Of a stretch of 64,000 nt of DNA, positions 26,118 to 55,600 are shown piece by piece; the first letter of the stretch is position 1; each line of letters opens with the position of its first letter. A program made the position numbers and the translations under genes. The stretch covers positions 1-64,000 of the forward strand of contig BPHB01000002.1 in the NCBI GenBank assembly GCA_026003335.1, written 5' to 3'. The notes under the pieces were generated by a model, which made no database searches, was not told where the DNA came from, and saw only the letters and a program-made list of their open reading frames with translations. This DNA comes from Chitinophagales bacterium (lineage in GTDB: Bacteria > Bacteroidota > Bacteroidia > Chitinophagales > CAIOSU01).

Positions 26118-26394
26118 TCAATATTTCACTAAGCGGAATACTTTTTCAGAAAAGGTATTGCTAAGTTTCAGCGAGTAGGTGCCGGATGGTAGGTGCGAAA
26201 GCGACTTCAGAGCAATTTGATTTTCTCCGGGCTGCAGGTGCATTTGCTCCTCTGCAATAATCCGGCCCAATACGTCATACAGCGTCAGAACAAACTTATC
26301 TTCCTGCAACACCTGTAATTTGAGCGAAATTTCAGAGCTGAAAGGGTTCGGGTAAATATGTAATCCCTCAGATGGTAAATCTGAAATACCCGAG
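26118..26394 (-). other. T9SS type A sorting domain of the giant protein
   Basis: The last 90 or so residues run from LHIYPNPFSSEISLKL through VLTLYDVLGRIIAEEQM and LPSGTYSLKL to the final basic VFRLVKY. This is the standard order of a type A C-terminal domain and shows the 3522-residue protein is complete at its C-terminus. Confidence 0.85.
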
Positions 26395-29300
26395 CACAGC
26401 TCTACGGCAAAGGTTTCCATCACACTGTTGCTGCAGTTATTGGAGTCAGTATACAGATACCAGATACTGTGCTGTCCGTAGCCAGCTAAAGCGGGGTAGA
26501 AAACATTATCCCGGATACCGGGACCACTAAATTTACCGCCCGGAGGATGAGCCGTTATTTCTAATGGCGTGTCGTGCAGGCAAAATCCATAATCTACTTT
26601 TTCCATGCTAATCTCCGGCAGGGGATTCACTCGTACCCATTGCGTATCGGCAGAAACACAGCCCTGTCCGTCATTCAGGGAATATACAATCGGGAAAGGA
26701 CCTCCTGCCCCCGCAACACCGGCATCAAAAATGTTAATTACCACTCCCCTGCCAGAAAACTTTCCACCTGCAGGCACGGCTGAAAGTACTACAGGTTGTG
26801 CGTCTTCGCAATACATACTATCCAAACCGATAATAGAAACACTATTTACACCAAAGACTTGTGTCTGAGAAGTAGCAGTTGCCTCACAATTAAAGGAATC
26901 CCTGTAAGTGTAGTTTAACTGGTGAACCCCTGTTCCGGCTTGAGCGGGGCTGAAAATGTTTCCATCAATGCCTGGTCCGCTAAAAAAACCTCCGGCCGGT
27001 ATGCCGGTAAGGAATACGGCATCTTGCTGCACACAATACGAAGCCGACAGACCTGAGATAGATACTGAAGGTAAAGCGCTTACGGTCAGATTAATGGACG
27101 TAGCCGCTCCACAGCCCCAAGCATTTTCATAATAATAATTTACCGGATAAATGCCCGCATGATTCGGATAAAACAATGAGTCAGTTACACCTGAGCCGCT
27201 GAATACTCCTCCGGGCGGATTGGCCTGAAGCACAACCGGGAGGCTGCCGGAACAAAAAATGCTATCAGACATGCCAAATGCCACAACGGGATTAGCTATA
27301 ACAACCGTAGTTTTCCATGCCGTGTCAGAGCAGCCCTGATTATTGGTGTAGCTGTAGCTGATGAAGTGTGTATCAGCCCCCACCAGCTGAGGCTCAAAAT
27401 AATTGCCGTTTATTCCCGGGCCATTGAAAACACCTCCGGCAGGCATCCCCCATAAGGAGTCAGCACTGTCATCTGCGCAGTATAAACTATCAAGCCCGCT
27501 GAATGAAACCTGTGGCACGGGCAGCACTGCCACAGGATAACTGCGTGAAGCAGAGCATCCCTGCGCATTGGTATAGGTAACCTGAACGCTATAGTTACCG
27601 GGCGGCAAAGACGAGGGACTGAATATGTTTCCTGCAATGGCAGGACCTGCAAGGGTTGCCCCTGCAGGCAACGCCTGTAAAACCACGTCTGCATTATTAC
27701 CGCAATATGCAGTATGCAATCCGTTTATGCTCACTATGGGAACCGGATTAACAATAACAATCACCGTATCACGGGCTAAACAGCCATGTTGATTATACCC
27801 TGTCACCAGATACGATGTGCTAACCTGAGGACTCACGACTATGGATGAGGATGTGGCTCCCGTGCTCCACAAATAACTATCTGCTCCCGATGCACTTAGA
27901 ACAGCACTCTCTCCTGCGCAAATCGCTTTATCCGGGCCCAGGGAAACAGTCGGCAACGGGTGTACTATCAAGGAAGTTATCACCACACTATCACAGCCTG
28001 ACGCAGACGGAACCCGCTCGGAATAGGTGCCGGCAGCACTTCGCAGGGCACCTGCAATGAAAGCCGTTTGCCCCTGACAGATGCTTATTGTTACATAAGA
28101 GGTATCCACCGGAATTACTGTAAGATAAAATACTTCGGTGCTATCACATCCATTATGCGCAATACGGGTTTCCGTATAGATTCCACTGGTTTTTCTGGGC
28201 TGTCCGGCCACCATTATACTATCACCCTGACAAATGGTAATATAATGATTATTCAGATAGGTGGGCTTAATATGCAGTGTGGTGGTTATTATGCTATCAC
28301 ATCCGGCAAACGTTTTAAGCGTATCTGCATAGACCCCTGCCATGTACCGATAAGCACCCTGGAGAAAAACGCTGTCTCCATTGCAGATAGAGATGGTGCG
28401 GCTGCTAAACCGCCTGGGTAAAACGGTAAGCACAGTTGTTACCACACTATCGCAGCCACTGGAGGATATCAATGTGTCGTGATAAACTCCACTACGATTT
28501 TGCATGCTACCCCCCGCATAGTATGTTTCTCCGTCACAAATACTAACAGACAGCGAAGAGGATAAGACCGGCATTACGGTAAGGTCGGTGATAAGTACAC
28601 TATCACAACCTCTGGTAGAAGAAAGAGTGTCGTAGTATCGACCGGAGGCAAAGCGATAAGCCCCTTGTGCCCATATACTATCTCCCGAACAGATGGAAAC
28701 ATTGCGATAAGATTGTTGCACAGGCATAACGGTAACATGGGTTGTAAGAATACTGTCACACCCATTCAGGGCAGATAAGGTATCGGTGTAGTAGCCGGAT
28801 TCTGTTTGCCAGGCACCACCGACAAACACCTGCTCCCCTTCACAAATAAATATTTCCGTGAACGAGCCTTGCACCGGTAACACAGCCAGCAAGGTTAAGA
28901 CCACGCTATCACAGCCATTATGGGAGATAAAAGTGTCATAGTAGGTGCCGGCTTCCGTTTGGTATTGCCCGGCAGCAAAATATGTTTCCCCCGCACATAT
29001 AGCAACACTATACTGGAAAACGGAAGATTGCAGCACAGTAAGGTGAGTTGTGATAATGCTGTCACAGCCATTGTAAGCCGTCAAAGTGTCGTAGTACACC
29101 CCAGATGTAGTTTGCCAGTTGCCTCCGGCATAATAGGATTCCCCTTCACATATAGAAACCGATTGATATACCTGTACTGGCAAAAGAAATGTAAGCCGGG
29201 TAACCACAATGCTGTCACAACCGTTAATTGCAGCAAAAGTATCTCTGTATTCACCAGGCTGACTTTGATACCCTCCCTGCGCAAAGTATGTCTGTCCTTG

Positions 29301-32300
29301 ACAAAGGGAAACATCTATCGTATCCACCGTAGCAGACACTACTGACAGGCGTACAATTACAATGCTGTCACAGCCTGTAGCCGATAAAAACGAATCTCTA
29401 TACACACCTGAAAAGAACCGCCACTGGTTTTCAGTAAAAAATGAATCACCTGCACAAATAGTTACGTCATTAAAAACTATCTGGTCATGCTGCACTTGTA
29501 GGCTAGTCACCACAATGCTATCACACCCATTGATTACCTGGAAGGTATCATAATATGTTCCGGCATGTATTTGCCAGGCCCCACCGGCAAAGAAGCTGTC
29601 CCCCTCGCAAATAAAAGCAGATACATAAGTTGTATCTCCGGAAAAAACATTGAGTTCGGTTATAACAATACTGTCACAACCGCTAAAGGAGGTCAGAGTG
29701 TCTGTGTACACACCAGGCAAAAACCGTTCAGAGCCTCCGACATAGTAGCTCTGTCCCTGGCAAATGACCACAACCTGATAATATGAAGAAACGGGCAGCA
29801 CCTCAAGCTGTGTGATGATCACACTATCGCATCCTGCGGCTGTAAATAATGTGTCATAATAAATACCCGACTCAGAGCGGTAAGTGCCGCCAGCCCAAAT
29901 TTCTTCATCCGCGCAAATTTGCACTGTCCGGCTTTGCACATAGGAGGGTAAAATCGTCAAATCTGTAATAATTATACTATCACAACCATTTATGTCCATA
30001 AGCGTGTCATAATAAATTCCGGAAGCGGTTTGCCAGTTTCCTCCCGCATAAAAAGAATCTCCGTTGCAAATCCACATCTCACGGACGTTGAGATGCCGCG
30101 GCATGAACATTAGTTCCGTTATCAGAATGCTATCACATCCGTAAACAGAATGAAGTGTATCGTAATAATACCCTGAAATGGTTTGCCACCCGCCTCCGGC
30201 AAAGAAGCTGTCCCCTTCACAAACAGTCACCGGAAACATTACACTATACGAATCAGCAACAGTAAGTGCGGTGGTTACAATACTGTCGCAGCCGTCCGCA
30301 GTTATAAAGGTATCCGGATAAAAGCCGCCTGCTCTTTGCCATGCTCCGGCCGCGTAAAAAGAATCTCCACTACAAATCGTTATCCTTTGTGTGTCGTGAT
30401 AAACCGGAAGCACGGTAAGTGCAGTTCTTAAAATACTATCACAACCATAAGCATTTAAAAGCGTATCATAATAGACGCCCGAAGTATTTCTCCACGCACC
30501 TCCGGCAAAAAAAGTTTCATCGCTGCATATAGTAACAGCTCTGGAAAAAGCAGTGGCAGACAATACATCAAGATAGGTAATTACAATACTATCGCAGCCA
30601 TTAGAGGAGATAAACGTATCCGCATACACTCCGGATTGCGACTGCCAGGCACCTGCAGCATAATAGCTCTCTCCTTCACAAATAGCCACCGGATTATTGA
30701 GCTGATACATCTGATAGACGGTGAGGGTAGTTGTCACCACACTGTCACAACCGTTAGCCGCTAACAACGTATCATAGTAAACTCCGCTGTTTGTCTGCCA
30801 GCCTCCCCCGGCATAATAGCTCTCACCGTCACATAAAACGACCTGAACAGAAGAGGCACGATGATTTTTAACAGCAAGCTGTGTAATCACCACGCTGTCG
30901 CACCCAAATTGGTTTGTAAGCGTATCATAGTAAGTGCCTGCACTACCTCTCATGGAGCCCCCCAAAAACACACTATCTCCCCGGCATATTGACAACTGAC
31001 GATTGATAAGCGAGGTGGGACTGACAGTCAATATGGTAGTAATCACACTATCGCAACCATTCTCGGCAGTAAGTGTATCATGGTAGATGCCTGGCTGATT
31101 GCGATATGAGCCGCCAGCGTAATAGTATGCATTGTCACAAATGGAGGCATACACGGTTTTGGTTTTTACAGGCAGCACGTTTAATATAGTAAGCACAATG
31201 CTGTCGCATCCATGCTCGGTCGTAAAGGTATCCAGATAAATACCTGTTTGACCACGTTGTTGTCCGCCCGCAAAAACCGTTTCACCCTGACATATAGTAA
31301 GCGGACGATAAGTTGTGCGCTTCGGATAAACAGTAAGATGGATAGTAATGATGCTGTCGCACCCGTTTAAGGCGCTCAGGGTATCACGATAAGTGCCGGA
31401 AACAGTTCTGTAAGCCCCACCGGCATAATATTCTTCACCCTGGCAAATGGATACATTTAAAACTGTGTGGTAATTCTGATTGACCGTGAGTTCCGTTACC
31501 ACGATACTATCGCAGCCGGAAACTGCCCTAAGTGTGTCGTAATAGATACCGGAGGTATTCTGATAATCCCCACCTGCATAATAAGCCTGACCTGCACAAA
31601 TAAAGATCTCTCTGTAATTTGTCTGAGGAGGAGTTACTTGCAACTGCGTTACTATAACACTATCACATCCGTTGTGCAAAAGGGTATCGTAATATGTGCC
31701 AGATGACATCTGGAACCCTCCGCCTGCATAGAAGCTGTCGCCCTCGCATATACTCACGGTATGGTTTATCACCACATTTCTCCCAACCGTGAGCAAGGTA
31801 GTTACAACACTATCACACCCGGCAAACGCAGAAAATGTGTCATTATAACTACCAGTTATCGTTTGATATGCTCCTCCGGCATAAAAACTATCCCCGTAAC
31901 AGATTTGAACTGATTGACTGACGCGGATAGCCGGCTCAACGATTAAGGTAGTCTGCACCACACTATCACAGCCAAACTGATTGTGCAGCGTGTCGTAATA
32001 TATTCCGGGCGTTGTCTGATAAGCTCCTCCGGCATAAAAACTATCCCCGTAACAAATCTGCGCTTCAAAGGCATGAAGATGTACCGGATTAACTGATAAT
32101 GTAGTGACTACAATGCTGTCGCAATGATTATTTGCAAGAAGGGTATCGTAGTATATTCCTGGTTGCGTACGATACATACCACCGGTAAACACACTATCTC
32201 CACTGCAAATGGAAAAGTTTAAAGTGGTCACCGGTGATGGCAACACAGTGAGCAAAGTAAAGATGGCACTGTCGCACCCATGCCGTGTAATGAAGGAATC

Positions 32301-35300
32301 CGTATAAAGCCCGGATTGATTACGCCATGCTCCCCCGGCAAAATAACTTTCATTATCGCATATAGAAACCAGCACAGTATCCTTGTAGGCCGGATACACG
32401 ATAAGTTCAGTAACAATTACACTATCACAGCCGGTAAAAGCCGAAAGGGTATCGTAGTAAATTCCGCTGCTGGTGCGCCAGGCTCCAGCGGCATAATAAC
32501 TTTGTCCTTCGCATAATGCTATATTTGCCGTATCGCTGTAAACAGGAAGAACAGTCAGCATGGTAATCAGGATGCTGTCGCAGCCCCGCGCGGACGCGAG
32601 TGTATCGTAGTAAATCCCGGAAACGAACCGTTCTGCGCCCGCAGCAAAATAGCTTTCTCCGCTGCATACGGTAACCGGAAGTATGGTAACATCCGTTTCA
32701 AGTACCTCAAGCGAAGTAATTACTACGCTGTCGCAACGCCAACCCTGCAGCGTATCATAATATATTCCGCTTTGGGTTTGCCAGTTTCCGGCAGCAAAGA
32801 AGCTATCACCGGCACAGATTTGCACGGTTTGAATTTCAACTGCATTGCTTTCCGTATGGAGTGTGGTAAGGATAATGCTATCACAACCATTAAGAGCAGT
32901 TAGGGTATCTCTGTATAGACCGGAAACTTTTCTAAAGGCGCCCTGCAGATACACACTATCCCCCGCACAGATAAAAATATTACGAAATGTCTGTACGCTT
33001 TCAGACACCGTCAGATGTGTAATCATAATGCTGTCGCAGCCATAATAAGATGAGAAAGTATCTGTGTATATGCCGGACTCTGTACGAGCTGCTCCCCCCG
33101 CCCAATAACTTTCTCCCTCGCAAATACCTACTGCCTGCGTGACAACTATGGTATTCAGCACTGAAAGATGTGTTACTACGATACTGTCACACCCGGTTTC
33201 TGCGGTAAGCGTGTCATAATAAGTTCCGGATACAGAACGAGACGCACCTCCGGCAAAATAACTTTCACCCTCACAGATTTGTACAAACAATTCCGTTACA
33301 ACATCAGGCAACACTGTTATTTGCGTGACAACCGGAATATGACACCCATTCGGAGTATATAAAGTATCCTGGTATGTACCTGGAGCAGTCTGCCAGTTAC
33401 CTCCGGCAAAGTATTGCTCTCCTTCACACATTATCACTTTCACAAATTGATTTCTCGGACAAGGGGAGGGAATAACAGAATCCTCCACAATTGGCCTGTT
33501 CAAATCATTTTTATCAGGACTAGCATGTACCGCAAGAACATGAAAGTATCCGAACCCGGAACTACCGAATGCATTCAGACTTACCGTTGCCTTGTACCAC
33601 ACATCATAAATCCAACCAGGATAAAGGGGATTAGGCGTGTAGTTAGAATCTGTGGCTGGAGATGTTGAGTACAATATATAGCCAAGCTGGTTGAAATTAT
33701 AGTCAATAGAGGTTTCGGTTTTTACTATGTCACTCGAATCACCCAGGTAAAGATATCCATCACCGCCCCTGACGCCTAAAGTCCGGAAACCGGAAGGAGT
33801 ATTCTGATCATATTCAAAATAATCCACACGGAAATCCAGACGCTTTTGACCACCGGCGTCATGCAGGGTCCAACGGATATGATCAGAGCGAATCAGGCTA
33901 TCCAGCGTACGCGTTACCCTCCAACCCACCGCATTAGGCCCATAGGTATTATCTGCATACCTTTTATCCAGCAGGCTTTGAATGGTAAGTGTACTATCCA
34001 CAAGATTGATGGTAACTTCCGATTCAATATGCTGAACGGAAAGATTGGTAATGACAATGCTGTCACACTGATACTGGTTTTTCAAAGTATCATAGTAAAC
34101 TCCGGACTCGCCCTGCTCTGCACCCCCGGCAAAGTAGGTGTCGCCCTCGTAAATAAGAATGTCCTGCCAGAACGTATCAGGGTTCTGGAAAGTCAGGTGG
34201 GTAACCACAACGCTATCACAGCCCGCAAATGTAGCAAGGGTATCATAGTAAATGCCGTTGACAGTCCGGAATTGTCCGCCAGCCCACACACTATCGCCCT
34301 TACAGGCAGAAACGTTCAGGGAAACAGCAGCTACAGGGTTAACTGTAAGATGCGTCATGATAATGCTGTCACAACCGTATGCTGAGTTTAAAGTGTCATG
34401 ATATACACCGGCCATGTGGCGATATTGCCCTCCGGCAAAAAAACTGTCGCCTTCGCAGATTGCAGAATATATTTCTGTTACAGATACATCCCATACCTGC
34501 AGACGGGTTTCTATCACGCTGTCGCAGCCATCAAAACTCACCAATGTGTCATAATATATCCCTGAAGTAGTTTGTCCACCTCCACCCGCATAATACACTT
34601 CTCCTGCACAGATAGCTGTATCCACTGTATTCCGTTTCACAGGATACACCACTAAGTTAACCGACTGACTTACACTGCAGCCTCTATCATCCGTCACGGT
34701 AACAGTATAACTGGCTGATAATTGAGGAGCTACTTCAATCATATACGTTGTAGCCCCATTGCTCCATGCATATCCTGTGCCTCCATTGGCTGTTAGCTGA
34801 ATCGTATCCCCTTGACAAATCTCTACTGAGGAAGGTGTAACTGACGCAGGGGGTAGAGGTCTTACCCGCACGGTTACGCTGGCCGTATCCACACATACTC
34901 CGCCATCACTTACCGTCACTGAATAAGTGGTTTCCGTGAGCGGACTCACCAGAATGCTTGCCGTTGTGGCTCCTCCACTCCAGCTGTATTGCGATCCTCC
35001 GGAAGCAGTTAATAATACCTGATCACCCTGGCATATCTCCGGATTTGAGGGGGAAACTGACGCATGCAAACTCGCACGCACCTCCACAGTGGAAGACGCT
35101 GTTGCAGAGCAGTTTCTGGAATCTATAACGGTAACTGTATAGGTCGTGTTTACAACAGGACTTACCGTTATCACTGCACCTATGGCACCCGAATTCCATT
35201 GATAGTTGACACCTCCGGTAGCCGTCAAAGTAACTTCAGAACCATTGCAAATAGATGCGGATGGCGGAAACACATGAGCCGCCGGAAGAGGATTTACCTC

Positions 35301-36686
35301 CACCAACCGAGATGCAGAAGCGCTGCAGCCGTAATTATTGGTAACTGTAACTGAAAATGTTGTTGTGGCAGCAGGACTCACAGTGATATTCTGACTTGAG
35401 TGCCCTGTATTCCATTGGTAACTCACACCCCCACCGGCGGTTAATATCGTGCTGCTCCCCTCGCAGATAGATACCATTGATGGAAAAATTGTGGCCACCG
35501 GCTGACTATGCACAACAACAGTAACTCCGGTTGATGCTGTACATCCATGTGAGTTGACAGCTGTAACCGAATAAAATGTATTTGCTGCCGGAGTAACCAC
35601 CACCGAAGAGCCTGTCTGGCCTGTACTCCAGGTGTAGTAACTGCCCCCATTAGCCGTCAGAGTAACCGATGAACCGATGCAAATAGCAGGTGTGTACGGA
35701 GTAACAGAAACCGCGGGTGCCGGATGCACCTGAAGTATGGTTGTAAGCACAGAATCACAGCCCTGTGCGGAAACAAAAGTGTCATAATATGTACCCGATA
35801 CGGTTTGCCATGCACCTGCTGCATAGAAACTATCACCCGGGCAAATAGCAACACTTCTTACCGTAGAAACTGTAGGTATGACGCTCAATGCTGTTTGTAT
35901 TACACTATCGCATCCGAATTGTGTAGTAAGGGTGTCATAATATAAACCCGCATCCGTCTGCCACGCACCGCCCGTATAGTAGCTTTCTCCGGAACAGATG
36001 GACACTGACACGGATGAAAAGAAAGCAGGAAGCACCGTCAGATGTGTTGTGACCACACTATCACAGCCGCTGGCATTCTGAAGCGTATCGTAGTAAATGC
36101 CGGACGTCTTCCGATAAGCTCCGGCAGCGAAAAAGCTATCCCCCTGGCAAATGATTTGCTGAGCTTCATGTACGGTGTAATAAGCATGCTGGTAAATCAT
36201 TCCGGTGCGGGGTAAGCCATTCAGAGAAACAAAGTAGCTTCCGTTTATTTGACTTGTAAATGTATCCGTTGCTATTTCCAGCCAGCCCTGCAAGCCAGTT
36301 ACAGGAATTTTTAGCAGCAAAACAGCAGAGTTACTTACCCAGTTGCTTCCTAAGCCGGCCATGGAAACAAGTCCGGTCCCTGCGAAAACCTGATAGGTGT
36401 AATCCCCATTGTTACGCAGAGGACCTGATTTCATCATGGGAATATAATCTGATAGCGGAGCAAACTGTATGACGTTGCCAATCTGGTTGCTGCACGCGGT
36501 TTTCCATTTAAGCGTAAACACCACGTTGGAAACCACTCCGTTGAAGTTTCCTTTGGGCAAGAGCCGCACTTCAAGTGTGTCATCATTAACTTTGAACAAA
36601 CCGATATCCACCAGAGGTTGTGCCTCCAGTTGCCATCCCTGCAGCAAAAAATAGAGAATCCCTGCTATGTAACTAATTCTCCTCAT
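26118..36686 (-). CDS. Giant (3522 aa) secreted repeat protein with about 43 two-cysteine GCDS units and T9SS type A sorting domain
   Basis: A signal peptide (residues 1-22, ending LEAQ) is followed by a cohesin-like beta-sandwich at about 23-172 (VDIGLFKVNDDTLEVRLL, VLLLKIPVTG). The bulk is a repeat of about 51 residues, with consensus C-x-G-[DE]-S-[FY]-[FY]-A-G-G ... S-G-x-Y-Y-D-T-L-x4-G-C-D-S-[IV]-[VI]-x-T-x-L-T-V. I count about 43 copies: 3 at about 176-320, 4 at about 683-889 and 36 at about 1083-2908. Between the first blocks lie six Ig-like modules (about 321-683), and an unidentified domain sits at about 889-1081. After the repeats come one Ig-like module, six GGxFSGPG modules (about 2978-3429) and a type A sorting domain (YPNPF, then LYDVLGRII). 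The repeats diverge at DNA level. It is probably a long cell-surface adhesin or scaffold. The start overlaps the stop of the upstream gene by 4 bp (ATGA). Confidence 0.92.
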   Translation of the reverse strand: MRRISYIAGILYFLLQGWQLEAQPLVDIGLFKVNDDTLEVRLLPKGNFNGVVSNVVFTLKWKTACSNQIGNVIQFAPLSDYIPMMKSGPLRNNGDYTYQVFAGTGLVSMAGLGSNWVSNSAVLLLKIPVTGLQGWLEIATDTFTSQINGSYFVSLNGLPRTGMIYQHAYYTVHEAQQIICQGDSFFAAGAYRKTSGIYYDTLQNASGCDSVVTTHLTVLPAFFSSVSVSICSGESYYTGGAWQTDAGLYYDTLTTQFGCDSVIQTALSVIPTVSTVRSVAICPGDSFYAAGAWQTVSGTYYDTFVSAQGCDSVLTTILQVHPAPAVSVTPYTPAICIGSSVTLTANGGSYYTWSTGQTGSSVVVTPAANTFYSVTAVNSHGCTASTGVTVVVHSQPVATIFPSMVSICEGSSTILTAGGGVSYQWNTGHSSQNITVSPAATTTFSVTVTNNYGCSASASRLVEVNPLPAAHVFPPSASICNGSEVTLTATGGVNYQWNSGAIGAVITVSPVVNTTYTVTVIDSRNCSATASSTVEVRASLHASVSPSNPEICQGDQVLLTASGGSQYSWSGGATTASILVSPLTETTYSVTVSDGGVCVDTASVTVRVRPLPPASVTPSSVEICQGDTIQLTANGGTGYAWSNGATTYMIEVAPQLSASYTVTVTDDRGCSVSQSVNLVVYPVKRNTVDTAICAGEVYYAGGGGQTTSGIYYDTLVSFDGCDSVIETRLQVWDVSVTEIYSAICEGDSFFAGGQYRHMAGVYHDTLNSAYGCDSIIMTHLTVNPVAAVSLNVSACKGDSVWAGGQFRTVNGIYYDTLATFAGCDSVVVTHLTFQNPDTFWQDILIYEGDTYFAGGAEQGESGVYYDTLKNQYQCDSIVITNLSVQHIESEVTINLVDSTLTIQSLLDKRYADNTYGPNAVGWRVTRTLDSLIRSDHIRWTLHDAGGQKRLDFRVDYFEYDQNTPSGFRTLGVRGGDGYLYLGDSSDIVKTETSIDYNFNQLGYILYSTSPATDSNYTPNPLYPGWIYDVWYKATVSLNAFGSSGFGYFHVLAVHASPDKNDLNRPIVEDSVIPSPCPRNQFVKVIMCEGEQYFAGGNWQTAPGTYQDTLYTPNGCHIPVVTQITVLPDVVTELFVQICEGESYFAGGASRSVSGTYYDTLTAETGCDSIVVTHLSVLNTIVVTQAVGICEGESYWAGGAARTESGIYTDTFSSYYGCDSIMITHLTVSESVQTFRNIFICAGDSVYLQGAFRKVSGLYRDTLTALNGCDSIILTTLHTESNAVEIQTVQICAGDSFFAAGNWQTQSGIYYDTLQGWRCDSVVITSLEVLETDVTILPVTVCSGESYFAAGAERFVSGIYYDTLASARGCDSILITMLTVLPVYSDTANIALCEGQSYYAAGAWRTSSGIYYDTLSAFTGCDSVIVTELIVYPAYKDTVLVSICDNESYFAGGAWRNQSGLYTDSFITRHGCDSAIFTLLTVLPSPVTTLNFSICSGDSVFTGGMYRTQPGIYYDTLLANNHCDSIVVTTLSVNPVHLHAFEAQICYGDSFYAGGAYQTTPGIYYDTLHNQFGCDSVVQTTLIVEPAIRVSQSVQICYGDSFYAGGAYQTITGSYNDTFSAFAGCDSVVTTLLTVGRNVVINHTVSICEGDSFYAGGGFQMSSGTYYDTLLHNGCDSVIVTQLQVTPPQTNYREIFICAGQAYYAGGDYQNTSGIYYDTLRAVSGCDSIVVTELTVNQNYHTVLNVSICQGEEYYAGGAYRTVSGTYRDTLSALNGCDSIITIHLTVYPKRTTYRPLTICQGETVFAGGQQRGQTGIYLDTFTTEHGCDSIVLTILNVLPVKTKTVYASICDNAYYYAGGSYRNQPGIYHDTLTAENGCDSVITTILTVSPTSLINRQLSICRGDSVFLGGSMRGSAGTYYDTLTNQFGCDSVVITQLAVKNHRASSVQVVLCDGESYYAGGGWQTNSGVYYDTLLAANGCDSVVTTTLTVYQMYQLNNPVAICEGESYYAAGAWQSQSGVYADTFISSNGCDSIVITYLDVLSATAFSRAVTICSDETFFAGGAWRNTSGVYYDTLLNAYGCDSILRTALTVLPVYHDTQRITICSGDSFYAAGAWQRAGGFYPDTFITADGCDSIVTTALTVADSYSVMFPVTVCEGDSFFAGGGWQTISGYYYDTLHSVYGCDSILITELMFMPRHLNVREMWICNGDSFYAGGNWQTASGIYYDTLMDINGCDSIIITDLTILPSYVQSRTVQICADEEIWAGGTYRSESGIYYDTLFTAAGCDSVIITQLEVLPVSSYYQVVVICQGQSYYVGGSERFLPGVYTDTLTSFSGCDSIVITELNVFSGDTTYVSAFICEGDSFFAGGAWQIHAGTYYDTFQVINGCDSIVVTSLQVQHDQIVFNDVTICAGDSFFTENQWRFFSGVYRDSFLSATGCDSIVIVRLSVVSATVDTIDVSLCQGQTYFAQGGYQSQPGEYRDTFAAINGCDSIVVTRLTFLLPVQVYQSVSICEGESYYAGGNWQTTSGVYYDTLTAYNGCDSIITTHLTVLQSSVFQYSVAICAGETYFAAGQYQTEAGTYYDTFISHNGCDSVVLTLLAVLPVQGSFTEIFICEGEQVFVGGAWQTESGYYTDTLSALNGCDSILTTHVTVMPVQQSYRNVSICSGDSIWAQGAYRFASGRYYDTLSSTRGCDSVLITDLTVMPVLSSSLSVSICDGETYYAGGSMQNRSGVYHDTLISSSGCDSVVTTVLTVLPRRFSSRTISICNGDSVFLQGAYRYMAGVYADTLKTFAGCDSIITTTLHIKPTYLNNHYITICQGDSIMVAGQPRKTSGIYTETRIAHNGCDSTEVFYLTVIPVDTSYVTISICQGQTAFIAGALRSAAGTYSERVPSASGCDSVVITSLIVHPLPTVSLGPDKAICAGESAVLSASGADSYLWSTGATSSSIVVSPQVSTSYLVTGYNQHGCLARDTVIVIVNPVPIVSINGLHTAYCGNNADVVLQALPAGATLAGPAIAGNIFSPSSLPPGNYSVQVTYTNAQGCSASRSYPVAVLPVPQVSFSGLDSLYCADDSADSLWGMPAGGVFNGPGINGNYFEPQLVGADTHFISYSYTNNQGCSDTAWKTTVVIANPVVAFGMSDSIFCSGSLPVVLQANPPGGVFSGSGVTDSLFYPNHAGIYPVNYYYENAWGCGAATSINLTVSALPSVSISGLSASYCVQQDAVFLTGIPAGGFFSGPGIDGNIFSPAQAGTGVHQLNYTYRDSFNCEATATSQTQVFGVNSVSIIGLDSMYCEDAQPVVLSAVPAGGKFSGRGVVINIFDAGVAGAGGPFPIVYSLNDGQGCVSADTQWVRVNPLPEISMEKVDYGFCLHDTPLEITAHPPGGKFSGPGIRDNVFYPALAGYGQHSIWYLYTDSNNCSNSVMETFAVELCSGISDLPSEGLHIYPNPFSSEISLKLQVLQEDKFVLTLYDVLGRIIAEEQMHLQPGENQIALKSLSHLPSGTYSLKLSNTFSEKVFRLVKY
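27965..33440 (-). repeat. Array of about 36 in-frame copies of a 51-codon GCDS repeat
   Basis: The longest block of the repeat runs without interruption for about 5.5 kb, each unit close to 153 bases. Every unit keeps one cysteine in [IV]-C-x-G-[DE]-S and one in G-C-D-S, an A-G-G turn, and the Y-x-D-[TS]-[LF] strand. Nearly all differences between units are substitutions; spacing hardly changes. On the + strand the unit is recognisable as a recurrent CTATCACAGCC-like word opposite the GCDS codons. Seven further copies lie in two shorter blocks at about 34020-34640 and 35725-36160. Confidence 0.9.
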
Positions 36687-39469
36687 GGTGACGGCAATTG
36701 TTCATTTCTTACGGCAGCAGGATTACTGCCTCCTATATTGATCAAAATGATATCCCGGTCATTTCCGACTCCCATATATTTAACCACTCCATCCAGATTG
36801 ATATCTTCATTGAAATACCCGGGTACTACAGCAGTAGGTTCAGCCACTCCTGCTCTGGCTAGAATCAGATCGCGGTCGTTATCATTACCAATGTATTTCA
36901 ACCGTTTATCCTGATTGCAGTTACCAGCCCACATCACCCTTTTGGTGCCAATCTGTTTTTGGGGATTTGTACCATACAAAGGGACGGAGGTGTTGGAAAA
37001 ATCCAAAGAGAATATGGAATTCAGGGAAAACGGATTTTTAGACATGAATCCCAGATGATTGCGGTGGCGTATGGCAATGAAATAGTCATCACACGCTACT
37101 CCGTGAAAGATCACAGGTTGCATGCCGTTGGTATCCACAATATCACCGTCCCGCTGGAGCAGTGCAGACCGAGAGGCAACAACCGCGGAGCTGTCATTTT
37201 TATCTCTGAGCTCCACAAAAATCCAGTCCACTATGGCATTGCTGCCCGTCACATTTAAAACCGCAGAGGATGTAAATTCTCCTCCGCCAGGTCCATAATG
37301 GACAAACCCCATAGAGGAAAATGGCTCTGAGAGTGGAATGAGCCCGGCTGCGCGCAGATCATCGCGCATCAGCCCGCTGGCAGGATCATAAGGTCCTTCG
37401 AGAAAAACCTTCAGGTTGAGGGCTACCAAACCGGTTTGCAGCACTTCAGCACTGTCTACCAAAACACATCCGGTATTATCGGTAATGGTCACCGTGTATA
37501 CTCCCGGTGCCAAGTCGGTAATAATGGAAGAAGTTTCCCCGTCAGACCATAGATAGGAGTAAGGGGGTGTTCCTCCGGAAGGCGTAACACTTATTGCACC
37601 TCCCTGTGCATTGCAGCCGGTGTGTGTAATATCAAAAGCAGCCTGATAGTTGCTGGTTATAAGAATAGCCCAGTCATTGTTGGCATAAGGCCTGGACCCC
37701 AGATAAACAGTTCCGCCACCCTGTACTGTTATGAATCCGCCATTCTGCAGGATGTAACTGTTGTTGGTGGGATCATACCATTTCACTGTGTAAGTACCAC
37801 AAGGCAATGTAATAGAAGGATTGGAATTACCGAAACGGTCATAAATAGCGTACACCCTTCCAGGATACTCTAAAACAAAATCGCTGGAATAGGCGGTGAG
37901 TGCATCATTGGGAGTCATCTTCCAGAAAGGCAGATAATTTTTGAAAAAATATTGCGCCTTACGGGTATAGTCCCAGATAATGCTTCTGGTGCGGAAGTCC
38001 TCAGCGGTTAGATCATCATTTCCGAAATACCACTCTACTCCTCCACCTCCGGCCATGTAGTGTGCCCAAAGTGCCAATTCGCGCAGCATACCCTGGTTGT
38101 TGCCGCCACCATCAGGGTCAACCCCACCTACTACCTCATCAAAACTTACAACCCAGTTTTTACCATTCGCTGCAGAACTGTCTCTCCATTTAATGGTGAA
38201 AAGATGAGCATCATTGACATTCATTTGCAGAGAAACCCCGTCATAATCTGCATTTCCGAGTAATGGCAGATAAATAAGGTCGTGATCATTAGTGGCTGTA
38301 TGAATGACCACCTGGTGCTTATAAGGATCATTCGCCTTAAAGTAGGCTGCCATATCTCTACGCTGCTGATCGGTTTGCGTGCCACGCCCCTGATAGTCCC
38401 AGCCGTTTTCTTCACCCATATTCCAGGTCACTGCCAGATGGTGACTGAAACGGGCTATCAGCTCGCGATAGTAAAGCTTACGCAAAGGCCCAACATCACC
38501 GTTATCCAGAAGCATCTGGTTTTCGCGCTCTTGAGTTACGAAGTGCAATAGGATGCCCAGTGAATCAGCATGGGAAAAAACAATTTCCCACTGATCCAGT
38601 TTGGAAACATCAAATCGGTTAAAGTCACTTGCATTGGGAGAGATATAAGGCCACACATCGTCTCCATCACCCATGATGTTGAGGGTGATGAAATAGATTG
38701 CATTAACACCCTGGCTTGCCAGGTAATTCAGAGCTCCTATGATTGCTTTTCCTTTACTGCCCTGCCAGAGCGGATCACCGGCATTCCAGTCAGGAACATG
38801 AGTAGGAAAATGGTGCAGGCCCGTAGGCGTGGCAGGCGAAAGGCCACCATTGTCAAAGGTACCGTCAAACTCATAATAGGCAAGCAGGTTTTCCGGGCTG
38901 TTGCATCCGGCTTTCAGAAAATACTCTCCGGTTTCTGCAAAACGCAGATGATGCTCGCCCACATATTGCAGTCTGCCCCGGGCCCTGAAGTCATAACCGG
39001 TTTTATTGGTGGGGAGGATATTCAAGTTTCCGGATAACCCATCCACAGGCGCGACAGCCTGCCCTGCAGCGGGATTATCATCTACGGCTATGCCCGGTGC
39101 GGTGCGAAAAGAAACCTGATACGTCCACAGCCCTTCTTCATCTGGAGCAAAATGCACTCTCCACTTATTACCTGAGGTAGCTCCTGTATTTGCCGCATTA
39201 CCATCAGCGGCAAAATATCCTGGCACACGATAGGTTTTGTCACCCTTCGTAAAAGTAACCAGCAGTCTGAAATCGGTAAACGGGTTGGGAGTTCCGTTTT
39301 CGCTGTAGGTGCTGTCACTGCTGAATGTGAGGGTAACTTTATGCCATTTGCGAAGCTCTCCGGAAATTACCTGTCCCTGTCCTGTTGCCGGACAATAGAG
39401 CAACATCCACCAGGTTAAGGGTGATACAAGAGAAAACTTCAGGATTTTGAAAATCTTTATTCCGGGCAC
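36683..39469 (-). CDS. DUF5060 / apiosidase-like glycoside hydrolase relative with SprB repeat and dockerin-like C-terminus
   Basis: The 928-residue product starts at GTG with a basic-hydrophobic signal peptide; a later ATG at codon 22 is a weaker alternative. A DUF5060 beta-sandwich (about 35-130, ISGELRKWHKVTLTF) precedes a TIM-barrel domain of the DUF4038/apiosidase type (about 155-530), with candidate catalytic acids in WNMGEENG (Glu353/354) and SFDEV (Glu445). A collagen-binding-2-like sandwich follows (YAIYDRFGNSNPS, WYDPTNNSY), then one SprB-like repeat at about 611-675 (SGGTPPYSYLWSDGETS). The C-terminus has no T9SS domain; instead it carries two copies of a calcium-loop-like motif, LKYIGNDNDRDLIL and DINLDGVVKYMGVGNDRDIIL, before RNEQLPSP. 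Sugar substrate is unknown. Its stop overlaps the start of the giant repeat gene (ATGA), so the two are one translationally coupled operon. Confidence 0.87.
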   Translation of the reverse strand: MPGIKIFKILKFSLVSPLTWWMLLYCPATGQGQVISGELRKWHKVTLTFSSDSTYSENGTPNPFTDFRLLVTFTKGDKTYRVPGYFAADGNAANTGATSGNKWRVHFAPDEEGLWTYQVSFRTAPGIAVDDNPAAGQAVAPVDGLSGNLNILPTNKTGYDFRARGRLQYVGEHHLRFAETGEYFLKAGCNSPENLLAYYEFDGTFDNGGLSPATPTGLHHFPTHVPDWNAGDPLWQGSKGKAIIGALNYLASQGVNAIYFITLNIMGDGDDVWPYISPNASDFNRFDVSKLDQWEIVFSHADSLGILLHFVTQERENQMLLDNGDVGPLRKLYYRELIARFSHHLAVTWNMGEENGWDYQGRGTQTDQQRRDMAAYFKANDPYKHQVVIHTATNDHDLIYLPLLGNADYDGVSLQMNVNDAHLFTIKWRDSSAANGKNWVVSFDEVVGGVDPDGGGNNQGMLRELALWAHYMAGGGGVEWYFGNDDLTAEDFRTRSIIWDYTRKAQYFFKNYLPFWKMTPNDALTAYSSDFVLEYPGRVYAIYDRFGNSNPSITLPCGTYTVKWYDPTNNSYILQNGGFITVQGGGTVYLGSRPYANNDWAILITSNYQAAFDITHTGCNAQGGAISVTPSGGTPPYSYLWSDGETSSIITDLAPGVYTVTITDNTGCVLVDSAEVLQTGLVALNLKVFLEGPYDPASGLMRDDLRAAGLIPLSEPFSSMGFVHYGPGGGEFTSSAVLNVTGSNAIVDWIFVELRDKNDSSAVVASRSALLQRDGDIVDTNGMQPVIFHGVACDDYFIAIRHRNHLGFMSKNPFSLNSIFSLDFSNTSVPLYGTNPQKQIGTKRVMWAGNCNQDKRLKYIGNDNDRDLILARAGVAEPTAVVPGYFNEDINLDGVVKYMGVGNDRDIILINIGGSNPAAVRNEQLPSP

Positions 39470-49642: not shown

Positions 49643-52600
49643 ATGAAGCCCGCATACTTCCTGCATAAGCCGATGATGATTATACTTTCTGTACTGTGCA
49701 TATTTCTTATGTCAGTTTGGGAAATGCGGGCCCAACCCAGCCGGGCTGCAGAAAAAGTAATTCAATACACACGCAAAGAGGTTCTCTTGCAGTTGGCCGA
49801 TTCACTCAGGCGTAAAAGCGCAGAAGAAAAAGAACGAGCTCTAAAAAAAGCTGCTGAAAAAGGCTGGCAGCCTCGTATTGAACTTGGAGACGGGCGCGTG
49901 GCAGAGTTAATCCGGCTGGATGCTCAGGGCAATCCGGTTTACTACCTTGCCGATAATGCCATAGCTGCCATTACAACCAATACCAGTGCAGTACATGTGG
50001 GCGGTTCACTGGGCTACTCCCTTGAAGGGCAAGGCATGTATGGCGGTATCTGGGATGCCGGAGCAGTGCGATATACACATGAGCAGCTGGAGGGACGTGT
50101 GTTTCTGATGGATGGAGCTCCGTTTTTTGACAGCCACTCCACCCATGTTGCCGGCACCATGATTGCCGATGGTACGCCTCTGCCTCAGGCAAAAGGAATG
50201 GCTCCCCAGGCTACACTCCGCTCCTATGACTGGAATTTGGACAACAGCGAGATGGCTCTTGCCGGAGCCAACGGGATGCTTGTATCCAATCATTCTTATG
50301 GCATTATTGCCGGCTGGTTTAACGATGGTAACTGGCACTGGTATGGCAACCCTGCTATCAGCCCCGATGAGTCTTACCTGCTTGGCTGGTATGACACCGA
50401 GGCCCACATCTGGGACAACATTGCCTACAATGCCCCCTATTATCTGATCATAAAGTCAGCCGGCAATGACCGGGATGACAATCCTCCGCCACCTGGCACC
50501 GCGCATACGCATTTTGGAGCGGGTAGCTTTACAGACTATCATCCTCAGGATGGCAATGGCGGCACGGGATATGACTGCCTCCCTACCAAGTCTAATGCAA
50601 AAAATATCCTTACCGTGGGAGCTGTTGGAGACATTCCGGGAGGATACTCCTCCCCTTCTGATGTGGTGATGAGCTCATTCAGTGGATGGGGTCCTACGGA
50701 TGACGGGCGAATAAAACCTGACATTTGTGGTAATGGCATCGGGTTGTTTTCCTGCACAGCCGGCAGCAACAGTCAGTATGCCTCTTACAGCGGTACGTCC
50801 ATGGCAAGCCCCAATATTGCCGGCTCCTGCCTTTTGTTGCAGCAGCAATACCTGCAGGTACATGGCACTTACATGCTGGCGTCCACGCTTAAGGGGCTCA
50901 TCATTCATACAGCTGACGAGGCTGGGAATTGGGAAGGGCCTGACTATGCCTTTGGCTGGGGTCTCATGAATACAGGCAGAGCTGCTGCCCTGATTGCCAA
51001 AGACAGCCTGCTGCAGTCGCATATTCAGGAAAATGTGCTTCACAACGGTTCTGTTTTTACTCATAACGTTATCAGCAGTGGTACTGAGCCTCTCATTGCC
51101 ACTCTCTGCTGGACAGATGTGCCTGCCACACCGGAATCACCGGGAGTGGATATAACCACCCTCAAGCTGGTCAATGATCTGGATATACGTATAACACACG
51201 ATGACTCCGTTTTCTTCCCCTACATACTGGACCCGGCAAATCCCACCGCTGCAGCAGGCCGGGGAGATAATTTCAGAGATAACGTGGAAAAGATTTATAT
51301 CCCAAATCCGGATGCCGGACCTTACTCGGTAACTATCACCCATAAAGGCAACCTTACAGGCGGCAGCCAGTCGTTTTCGCTGATCATTTCCGGCATGCAA
51401 TCTTCTCCTTGCTCTGACCCACATCATCTTGCTTTCCGACAACAGAACGGCTCATCCGGCATAGTAAGCTGGTCAAAGGGTAACACGAGTACGAGCTGGC
51501 TACTGGAGTATGGGCTTGCAGGTTTCTCTCCCGGAAACGGAATCATACTTTCGGGCAACTATCCCGGCCCATCAGAGGTGATGCTCACGGGACTGCAAAC
51601 CGGTATTTCTTATGAAGCTTATTTGACAGAACATTGTGATTCAGGACGTATATCCAATCGCATTGGTCCGTATCGCTTTACGCTTGTGCAGGTTTACAGC
51701 GGAAGCTATTGTGAAGATTTTGATGATTTCAACACCTGCGGCAATCAATTGTTTGAATGCTTGCAAAATGGCGCCTGCAGGGGAGCATTTACCGTGCCGG
51801 GTTGGGAAAATGCCTTCACCGATCAGATTGACTGGAGCGTGGGGGATGGCCCCACACCCTCTCTGAATACCGGGCCACAAACCGACCATACCACCGGCAA
51901 CGGTAAGTATCTTTTTACAGAGGCCTCATTGTGTTTTAACAACCAGGCTATTTTGTTAACTCCTGCTTTTGACCTGGGCAGTCTGCCTTCCCCCTCTCTG
52001 GATTTCTGGTATCACATGCTGGGCTCTACCATGGGCAACCTGCAGGTTGATATAGAATATCCGCTGGGATCGGGCAACTGGATTACTCTGTGGACCCTAT
52101 CAGGTAATCAGGGACAGAACTGGAAAAATACGCATCTCCCGCTTTCAGCTTATGGGGGTAGCATAGTAAGATTTCGCTTTGTAGCACATACCGGCCCCAA
52201 CTACGAAAGCGATATTGCCCTGGATGATGTTTGCGTCAGCTCCTCCTGTGCTCAGGCATCCGATTGTGAAGACAACAACCCCTGTACAGATGACTACTGC
52301 AACAATGGCCTATGTGCACACACCCCGCTTTGTCCTGATGGAAATTCCTGTACGATTGACGTGTGCATAAATGGTATTTGTTACCACGATACCATTGCGC
52401 AGTGTACGTCCTGTACAAATATGCTTTCAACATCCTTTAACGGCAACACCGGACAGCACGGCAACATGTTTGACATTACGGCTGTCAGAACCATAAAAAT
52501 TCTTTCATTTGACGGGCACTTCAGTACTCCGGCAGATGTGGAGATTTACTACAAGCCGGGTTCCCATCGCGGATATGAAAATACATCGCAGGCATGGAAC

Positions 52601-55600
52601 CGCATAGGCAGCGCTTCTCAGGTTGCGTCTGCAGGAGCCGGTCAGCCCTCTCCCATTCCCATTCCGGTTAACCTCACTATTCCTGCAGGAGAAACCTATG
52701 CCTTTTATATCACCACCACAGGCAATCAATACCTGCGTTTCAGGTTGGGAACCACGTGGGGGACCCCCTATGTACAGGATTCAAATCTTCTGGTCAAGGA
52801 AGGAACTGCCATTGACTATCCCTTTGGCACTTATTCAGATCCCTGGCAATGGAACGGAGTGATACATTACATCTGCGAAGATTATAACCCCTGCTCGGTG
52901 AATCAATGCACAAACGGGGTATGCTCTTATGTGGAGACCAGTTGCCCTGATGACAATGACCCCTGCACCGTCAATCTGGGCTGCATAAACGGGCAGTGTG
53001 TAATTGTTCCTCTTGATTGTAATGATAACAATCCCTGTACGGAAGATGCGTGCGATCCTGTGCTGTTGTGTACCCATAGCCCCATTGCAGGGTGCAATGC
53101 CTGTACCAGCATTACATGCGATGACAACAATGCCTGTACGGCAGATTATTGCGACTCTCTCACCGGGTGCTTTTACATTTCGCTGGTCTGCTCTGATAGC
53201 AATCCCTGCACCATAGACAGCTGTCTGCCGGTTTTAGGATGTTTCTTCCCTCTACAAAACTGTAATGACGGAAACTTCTGCACGGAAGATTATTGCGAAA
53301 ACGGTAAATGCCAGCATAGTCCGGTTAACTGCGATGACAATAATCCCTGCACGATAGATACCTGTGATTTTTATCTGGGATGTTTACATCTGCCTGTTGA
53401 CTGTGATGATGGCAACCTATGCACCGTAGATAGCTGCGTCACCGGCACATGTATTCATCTACCACTAAACTGCAACGACAATAACCTATGTACTACCGAC
53501 AGTTGCAGCACGACCAGCGGATGCATTTACTCGCCTTTGGTTTGCAATGACAATGATCCCTGTACGAACGATACCTGCATAGAAGGCATGTGCATATATA
53601 CATATTGTTCTGATAATAATCCCTGCACATTAGACACCTGTATCAACGGGGAATGTGTCTTTTCTCCCATCATCTGCAACGACTTTGACCCATGCACGCT
53701 TGATTCCTGTGTGAATGGCATTTGCATGTTTACTTCTGTAGATTGTGATGATCAGGATGCCTGTACCCAAGATAACTGCATAAATGGCATCTGCATACAT
53801 ACCCCACTGTTTTGCGATGACGGTGATAATTGCACGCAGGATTTTTGTCAGGGTGGACAATGTCTGCATTCCTGCAGCAACATGTCATATCTGCACTGGC
53901 AGCGCACACTGGGTGGAAGCAGCAACGATCAAATTAACAGTATTCGGCCGACTCCTGACGAGGGCTTTATCGCTGCCGGATTTACCTTATCAGCAGATGG
54001 CGATATAACGGGTCATCATGGAGCAGAGGATTTCTGGATAATACGTCTGGATGCCAATGGAGATGTGGTGTGGCAAAAAGTATATGGTGGCAGCAGCACG
54101 GATATAGCCAATGCCATTCGCCCCACAAAGGATAACGGCTACATTGTTGCAGGATATACCACGTCCACTAACGGAGATATTACCGGAAATCACGGTTCGC
54201 AGGATTTCTGGATAGTAAAGCTGGATGCAGCCGGTAATTTGCTATGGAGTAAAACCCTTGGCGGTACGGGAGCCGATGCCGCTTATGCTATCACGCAAAC
54301 AAGCGATGATGGCTACATCGTTGCCGGATATACCGCTTCTTCCAATGGCGATGTAACAGGCTATCACGGAGGCAGAGATTTCTGGGTCGTTAAACTGGAT
54401 AACACCGGCAACATCATCTGGCAAAGAGCACTGGGAGGAAGTAATCTGGATGACGCCCGGGATGTGCTGCAAACTTTAGATGGCAACTATGTTGTTGCAG
54501 GATATACATTATCCTCCGATGGTGACGTCTCTGTGAACAAGGGAGTATTTGATTACTGGGTTGTGAAGCTGGATACTTCCGGCAACATCATCTGGCTACG
54601 TACCTTCGGAGGATCTTCATCAGATAAAGCCACTGCTGTTGAACAAACGTCAGATGGCGGCTATCTTGTTGCTGGCTCCACAGCTTCTTTCAATGGCGAT
54701 GTATCAGGCAATCACGGTCTGCTGGATTTCTGGGTGATAAAACTAGATTCTGCCGGCCTGTTGCAATGGCAAAAAACCTTTGGCGGCTCCGCCAATGATG
54801 AAGCTCTCGCTGTTGTTGCCCATATTGACAACACCATCACTGTGGCCGGTTATTCTGCATCGTCCAACGGAAATGTTGCCGCTAACAATGGCGGTGATGA
54901 CTTCTGGATAATCAGACTGACTTCCGCAGGCAATATGGTATGGAGCAAAAATCTTGGCGGCTCTTCTGCTGACCGGGCTCATTCATTATGTATAACTGCG
55001 CAAGGGTATGTTGCCCTCGCAGGTTACTCCGCCTCCGCCAACGGAGATCTTTCCATCAATAAAGGTGGAAATGACGCATGGATTACCCACCTGGCTCTCT
55101 GCTCACCCACCGTCACCGTGGATTCTACGGTATGCACGCCACCGCCCGCAGAAGTAGTCTTAGATACCTTTATCCGTGCCAATGGCTGCGACAGCATCGT
55201 TGCCATTCGTTTCATCTATCAACCCTGCAATGATAGCCTGGCATGCACGATAGATACCTGTATCCAAAATCATTGTGTGTACACTTTCACGATTGCGGAC
55301 TGCGATGACCAGAACTGCCTTACCATAGACCGCTTTGATACGCTCACCTGTGCATGTGTGCATGACACCCTTCCGGCTCCTGACTGCAATGATTTCAATT
55401 GCTTTACACGTGATGTTTTTGACAGTCTAAACTGTATGTGTATATATGATACTGTTCCGGGCGGGCTCTGTAACGACAACAATCCCTGTACTTCCGATAC
55501 CTGCATACAGGGAACCTGTATTTTTCAGCACACTGCTGCCGTAACAGTGGAAGAAATTCAACCCGACTACTTCTGCCAGGATTCCCTGTTAAAACTTATC

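Follow-up and report, generated by a model that had tools for sequence, protein, structure and literature searches.

The 64,000-nucleotide stretch analysed here (the window; Chitinophagales bacterium, GCA_026003335.1, contig BPHB01000002.1, positions 1 to 64,000) carries on its minus strand two overlapping genes, whose products we propose to form a secreted client and its surface anchor. Gene 1 (36683-39469, GTG start) encodes P0001, a secreted DUF5060-type hydrolase-like protein of 928 residues, and gene 2 (26118-36686) encodes P0002, a protein of 3522 residues. The TGA stop codon of gene 1 occupies positions 36685-36683 and the ATG start codon of gene 2 positions 36686-36684; the genes therefore share an ATGA overlap at 36683-36686, which suggests translational coupling. 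P0001 contains a DUF5060 domain (residues 39-122, 39104-39355; Pfam PF16586, E 3e-21), a putative hydrolase region read from the sequence (about residues 160-600, 37670-38992, including WNMGEEN), a SprB repeat (residues 619-646, 37532-37615; Pfam PF13573, E 6e-9) and a C-terminal module (residues 682-928, 36686-37426) defined by an AlphaFold2 model, fold matches in the PDB and conservation. The hydrolase-like region has a weak PDB match, 4n0r, a 'putative glycoside hydrolase' (E 0.0097). P0002 begins with a signal-peptide-like sequence, followed by an N-terminal domain (residues 23-172, 36171-36620), repeat arrays (27837-36170) with at least 38 copies of a GCDS[IV] repeat of about 51 residues, and a type A sorting domain of the type IX secretion system (T9SS; residues 3444-3521, 26124-26357). 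The latter reaches 38.5 bits against TIGR04183 (cut-off 23) and E 3.6e-9 against Pfam Por_Secre_tail, identifying P0002 as a T9SS type A cargo.

Several of these features had been noted in a first-pass annotation of the window, and they hold up: the overlap of the two genes, the sorting domain at the end of the 3522-residue protein, its absence from P0001 (neither type A nor type B was found with Pfam and NCBIfam), and two acidic loop motifs near the end of P0001, NCNQDKRLKYIGNDNDRD at about residues 850-867 (36869-36922) and DINLDGVVKYMGVGNDRD at residues 889-906 (36752-36805; DINLDG...NDRD). The loops, which resemble calcium-binding repeats, are just the last third of a conserved C-terminal unit of about 245 residues (P0001 682-928). 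Homologues of this module, drawn from a scan of 84,980 genomes, align end to end and nearly all stop at the same C-terminal motif, following the pattern LxGPY...AIVDWVxVELR...LLQRDGDVV...HRNHLG...GDxNxDG...NDRD...DxNxDG...NDRD...EQLP. Two strict DxNxDG-type loops are present in the last 110 residues of 44 of the 108 homologous modules, compared with 0.06 expected after shuffling; the loop motifs are beyond chance. Module residues D208, N210, N222 and D223 are invariant across 19 aligned sequences, and distant members contain textbook loops such as DVNGDGSVDIGDR and DTDGSGVIDVTDR. Relative to canonical loops, aligned by eye, those of the window have four additional residues ahead of the last acidic ligand, as in DINLDGVVKY-MGVG-NDRD of the second loop. 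In P0001, the unit is covered by neither Pfam nor NCBIfam, and Pfam likewise lacks a model for it in the 19 aligned sequences. Of 69 module proteins, 7 match Pfam Dockerin_1, one match being shown above cut-off inside the module.

The predicted structure of the module is more telling. An AlphaFold2 model built from the 19 sequences (predicted local distance difference test, pLDDT, 93.8; predicted template modelling score, pTM, 0.91) places an X-module-like sandwich on a dockerin-like pair of loops, each followed by a helix (residues 185-192 and 223-230). In a Foldseek comparison with the PDB, each of the top eight matches is either a type II X-dockerin chain or a longer cellulosomal chain that contains one. 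VIA-align gives these eight entries Z 8.6-10.0 (143-150 aligned residues, spanning model residues 1-247); the next chain follows at Z 4.6. Sequence searches of the PDB with A1 and A2 gave no cohesin or dockerin match; the fold is missed by sequence alone. The first-pass annotation had compared the end of P0001 to the duplicated calcium loops of dockerins, and structure prediction agrees as far as the dockerin-type loops are concerned, placing the pair behind an X-module-like sandwich. What does not stand is a bare dockerin: judged from the model, the C-terminal module of P0001 is most likely an X-dockerin-like dyad of about 245 residues.

The module is not restricted to the window. A profile search recovered it in 52 of 395 Bacteroidota genomes and 42 of 171 genera, and the T9SS translocon component SprA is encoded in all 52 of these genomes, compared with 251 of the 343 others (Fisher 3e-7; this and all other co-occurrence statistics were computed without regard to phylogeny). 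In 109 complete module genes, the module is never followed by a T9SS tail, and a signal-peptide-like start is present in 98 of 104. The module proteins are otherwise highly diverse, comprising leucine-rich repeat (LRR), beta-propeller, polysaccharide deacetylase, M14 peptidase, endo/exonuclease-like and other proteins. They also include 'choice-of-anchor' families, whose members elsewhere bear other surface anchors. The 98-residue dockerin part gave no BLAST match in six other genomes of the window's family. As a separate observation, four IMG/VR contigs classed as viral (L053, L054, L055 and L056; for example L053:4338-8702) encode proteins ending in the X-dockerin-like module, which in L053 and L054 lie near tail-fibre-like genes; no alpha domain, the type found at the N-terminus of P0002, was found in the viral collection, though module proteins are present there. 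These contigs could reflect a phage using a host docking site, or they could be host DNA.

The gene directly 3' of a module gene, often joined to it by an ATGA-type overlap, usually encodes a protein of 340-470 residues with a signal peptide, an N-terminal domain of about 150-180 residues and a T9SS tail (genes in the loci of relatives were called by a simple script). With a home-made profile, the tail is detected in 48 of 63 downstream neighbours versus 12 of 65 upstream neighbours, and with a profile made from independent sequences only, in 28 of 63 versus 7 of 65. Pfam gives the same direction, with 34 Por_Secre_tail and 11 CHU_C matches among 72 downstream neighbours versus 7 and 4 among 61 upstream. 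The N-terminal domains of the partners form subtypes, of which beta is related to gamma (96%) and delta to beta (95%). In hhalign, a joint beta and gamma profile reaches 86.5% probability (E 4.6e-6, 107 columns) against 25 Bacteroidota cohesins that Pfam recognises; pairs with control domains (fn3-like, T9SS tail, X-module) remain at or below 1%. Two genomes link cohesins to the module within single proteins. G084 (locus L100) encodes a 787-residue protein with several cohesin-type domains (two Pfam matches, 8e-15 and 4e-13) and the module at its end, next to a partner gene with a T9SS tail, and G020 encodes cohesin-plus-module proteins upstream of an alpha anchor. The module therefore occurs in the scaffoldin context that is typical of X-dockerins.

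Loop type and partner type also go together. Insert (NDx) loops accompany 6 of 6 adjacent alpha partners and 3 of 4 epsilon partners, and canonical loops accompany 37 of 42 beta, gamma or delta partners, the remainder being largely pattern miscalls (the regular expression that assigns loop type counts a few canonical loops, such as those at L094 and L120, among the inserts). At the level of sequence, loop type thus co-varies with partner type, in counts that include shared ancestry. A strongly conserved pair of a module protein of about 700 residues and a delta-type partner of about 440 residues, usually one pair per genome, was also observed in genome families f24, f26, f29, f34, f50 and f56 (loci L094, L098, L101, L108, L110, L113, L118, L119, L126, L127, L135, L141, L145, L146, L150, L151, L156 and L159); its delta-type partner ends in a variant tail, ...ELSRAxIKLQLLR.

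The N-terminal domain of P0002 belongs to the alpha type, as indicated by its identity to Flavobacteriales anchors, profile A7 and a low-confidence model. When residues 23-172 were used as a single sequence to search the 395 genomes, they retrieved, besides the window itself, two good matches (E < 1e-6), both in G020 and both in a protein of about 380 residues with a T9SS tail, directly 3' of a module gene; two weaker matches (E 0.004 and 0.009) are probably due to chance. The 98 genomes searched from one order contain six short alpha anchors, each located behind a module gene, and three of these anchors come from genomes that were not picked for the module; in a phylum-wide sample of 285 genomes the six with an alpha domain (E < 1e-4) all carry the module. 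When the partner domain was first sought in L002-L015 with phmmer, nothing was returned; because it used one query sequence and local stretches only, this negative is no proof of absence. A family profile later found the alpha domain in all ten Flavobacteriales genomes from which L002-L014 derive. These genomes, which have NDR-type modules, encode one to four alpha proteins and 8-27 module proteins each, and their anchors, mostly 256-310 residues long, comprise a signal peptide, an alpha domain 30-44% identical to that of the window, and a T9SS tail. In an eleventh genome (L015), which has different loops, no alpha protein was found; its record is titled Bacillus sp., yet it encodes Bacteroidota-type proteins with the module and is probably a mislabelled assembly. 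The co-occurrence of the two modules in related genomes, on which the first-pass annotation had staked its proposal, is thus confirmed, usually with the genes adjacent, and the pattern bears the marks of a matched interaction, shared ancestry still being included. The window genome encodes one module and one alpha domain. Another of its contigs (G000:C1:51973-52311; L087, L163) encodes, within a 1058-residue frame, a further domain that narrowly exceeds the cut-off of Pfam Cohesin (26.1 bits).

Together, these data support the earlier suggestion that P0001 docks on P0002, with changes: we consider it likely that an X-dockerin-like client binds the cohesin-like domain of a partner that is exported by the T9SS and fixed to the surface. 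Gene 1 would provide a secreted hydrolase that, instead of a T9SS sorting domain, carries an X-dockerin-like module as its last 245 residues, and gene 2 a dedicated partner, a very long repeat protein with a cohesin-like domain at its N-terminus. The overlapping genes would be co-translated, the partner would be exported and attached through its own type A tail, and binding of the module to the cohesin-like domain, probably with calcium in both loops, would retain the enzyme at the cell surface. The pair in the window would be dedicated, one to one, and the unusual length of the partner, with its many repeats, may keep the enzyme at a distance from the cell; in Flavobacteriales, many clients would share a few short anchors. 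Given that the clients have a signal peptide and lack a tail, two ways to the surface are conceivable: export by a separate path with docking on the outside, or binding to the partner while still in the periplasm and transport on its tail. The latter is a tentative idea that we would not favour at present, namely that the module engages the cohesin-like domain before export and that the complex, already folded, passes the outer membrane through SprA by means of the partner's single sorting domain. If true, it would constitute an adaptor-based type IX secretion route for up to about two dozen proteins per genome, using a docking fold shared with cellulosomes.

Several observations weigh against docking. 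The first loop of the window has N where the first D is expected, and the window module itself gives no Pfam Dockerin_1 match. Most module genes in Flavobacteriales do not adjoin an anchor, and both the loop/partner matching and the co-occurrence counts still include the effect of shared ancestry. The domain at P0002 23-172 looked like a cohesin-type sandwich in the first-pass annotation. It has no Pfam match, hhalign of the alpha subtype with cohesins gives 0.3-1.4%, and its single-sequence model (pLDDT 47, pTM 0.46, nine strands) finds a mixture of cohesins, carbohydrate-binding modules of family 3 (CBM3) and unrelated sandwiches, matches that carry little weight. The domain's own profile and model do not establish the cohesin assignment, but its position, its architecture and the sister beta and gamma subtypes support a cohesin-like fold; the alpha subtype is itself weakly linked to the epsilon subtype (hhalign, up to 27%).

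How do other explanations account for these data? The module might be a new kind of T9SS sorting domain, its neighbour being simply another T9SS cargo of the same operon. Its invariably C-terminal position, its conserved short end motif (EQLP, xxVP) and its confinement to SprA-positive genomes, in place of a sorting domain, would all fit. However, the predicted fold is that of an X-dockerin, while a solved T9SS C-terminal domain scores low (mirolase, 8qb1, Z 3.9), and this explanation accounts neither for the cohesin-like character and T9SS tail of the neighbour, nor for the confinement of the alpha domain to module genomes, nor for loop type tracking partner type. We therefore regard a sorting domain as unlikely.

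We give slightly less credit still to the idea that the N-terminal domain of the partner is a CBM3-like polysaccharide binder and that the two gene products cooperate on one substrate without contact. While gene 1 encodes a putative glycan hydrolase and CBM3 chains are among the best Foldseek matches of the low-confidence 23-172 model, none of 26 partners has a Pfam match to a carbohydrate-binding module, the sister subtypes match cohesins, and the same kind of partner is kept by module proteins that are mainly not glycan hydrolases (LRR, beta-propeller, metallopeptidase and nuclease-like proteins, among others). Many surface proteins contain EF-hand-like loops, and the module could be a mere calcium-stabilised C-terminal cap in a coincidental surface operon; conservation that is specific to the downstream side (48/63 versus 12/65), an alpha domain confined to module genomes in the 285-genome sample, and the many clients and few anchors of ten genomes make this very improbable. 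Docking of an X-dockerin-like client on a T9SS-exported partner accommodates these observations best.

Further genes around the pair are of note. Adjoining gene 1, P0003 (39827-44239, minus strand) is a second DUF5060 enzyme, without the docking module, and the sequence of its region 799-1220 resembles RemA and RemZ, two T9SS cargo proteins whose structures have been solved. Three successive open reading frames on the same strand, P0010, P0012 and P0005 (44390-49286, minus strand; 679, 261 and 620 residues), look like a single large surface protein broken by frameshifts, and P0005 resembles the second half of P0003. On the plus strand, 49643-56506 encodes a 2287-residue subtilisin-like protein with many CDDNNPCTxDxC-type repeats rich in cysteine and aspartate.

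If docking holds, an uncatalogued module would identify many secreted proteins of unassigned role as clients that share a small number of short anchors, and would account for proteins of T9SS bacteria that have a signal peptide and no T9SS tail and are nevertheless held on the surface. It would also extend the X-dockerin fold beyond cellulosomes to secretion in Gram-negative bacteria, offer orthogonal plug-and-socket pairs for surface display, and make hitchhiking through the type IX route testable. The first-pass annotation went further and spoke of a minimal cellulosome, which we do not find: a cellulosome has a multi-cohesin scaffoldin gathering several enzymes, as a rule together with a cellulose-binding module, whereas the window offers one enzyme and one cohesin-like domain, with neither tandem cohesins nor a cellulose-binding module, and the genome one module protein.

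The closest structural relatives are the clostridial type II X-module-dockerins (2b59, 3kcp, 4u3s, 5k39), whose two-part fold matches the predicted window module over its whole length. The layout is also the same as in clostridial scaffoldins, with the docking module at the C-terminus of the client and a surface-anchored protein as partner (in the clostridial system, one bearing a type II cohesin), and the scaffoldin CipA combines several cohesins with an X-dockerin, as do some relatives of the window module. In contrast, identity to clostridial X-dockerins is 14-19%, the first part of the window module is longer and has extra segments, and the loops of its subtype hold the four-residue insert. 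Anchoring relies on a T9SS tail here and on S-layer homology domains in the clostridial system, and the partner here is encoded by an adjacent, overlapping gene and the clients are mostly not cellulases. Cohesin- and dockerin-like modules outside cellulosomes, as here, have reportedly been surveyed by Peer et al. in 2009 (cited in PMC8542988), and that survey may already include the present family. With respect to TIGR04183 T9SS type A cargo, P0002 is one, and P0001 bears the docking module in the place of the tail. Literature on dockerin, cohesin and T9SS combined, in a search whose coverage left out most subscription papers, gave no description of the module or the gene pair. The nearest proposal in the literature so covered was made in silico for Ca. 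Stygibacter (Cloacimonadota), in which a cohesin protein with a T9SS C-terminal domain is accompanied by dockerin-bearing secreted enzymes (PMC8542988). That system has a tandem cohesin/CBM scaffold and was identified with known domain models, whereas the anchor here has one domain, the X-dockerin-like module is uncatalogued, and the gene-pair arrangement is spread across Bacteroidota. A T9SS-anchored cohesin scaffold has thus already been proposed, and the gene pair described here is a widespread new variation on that theme.

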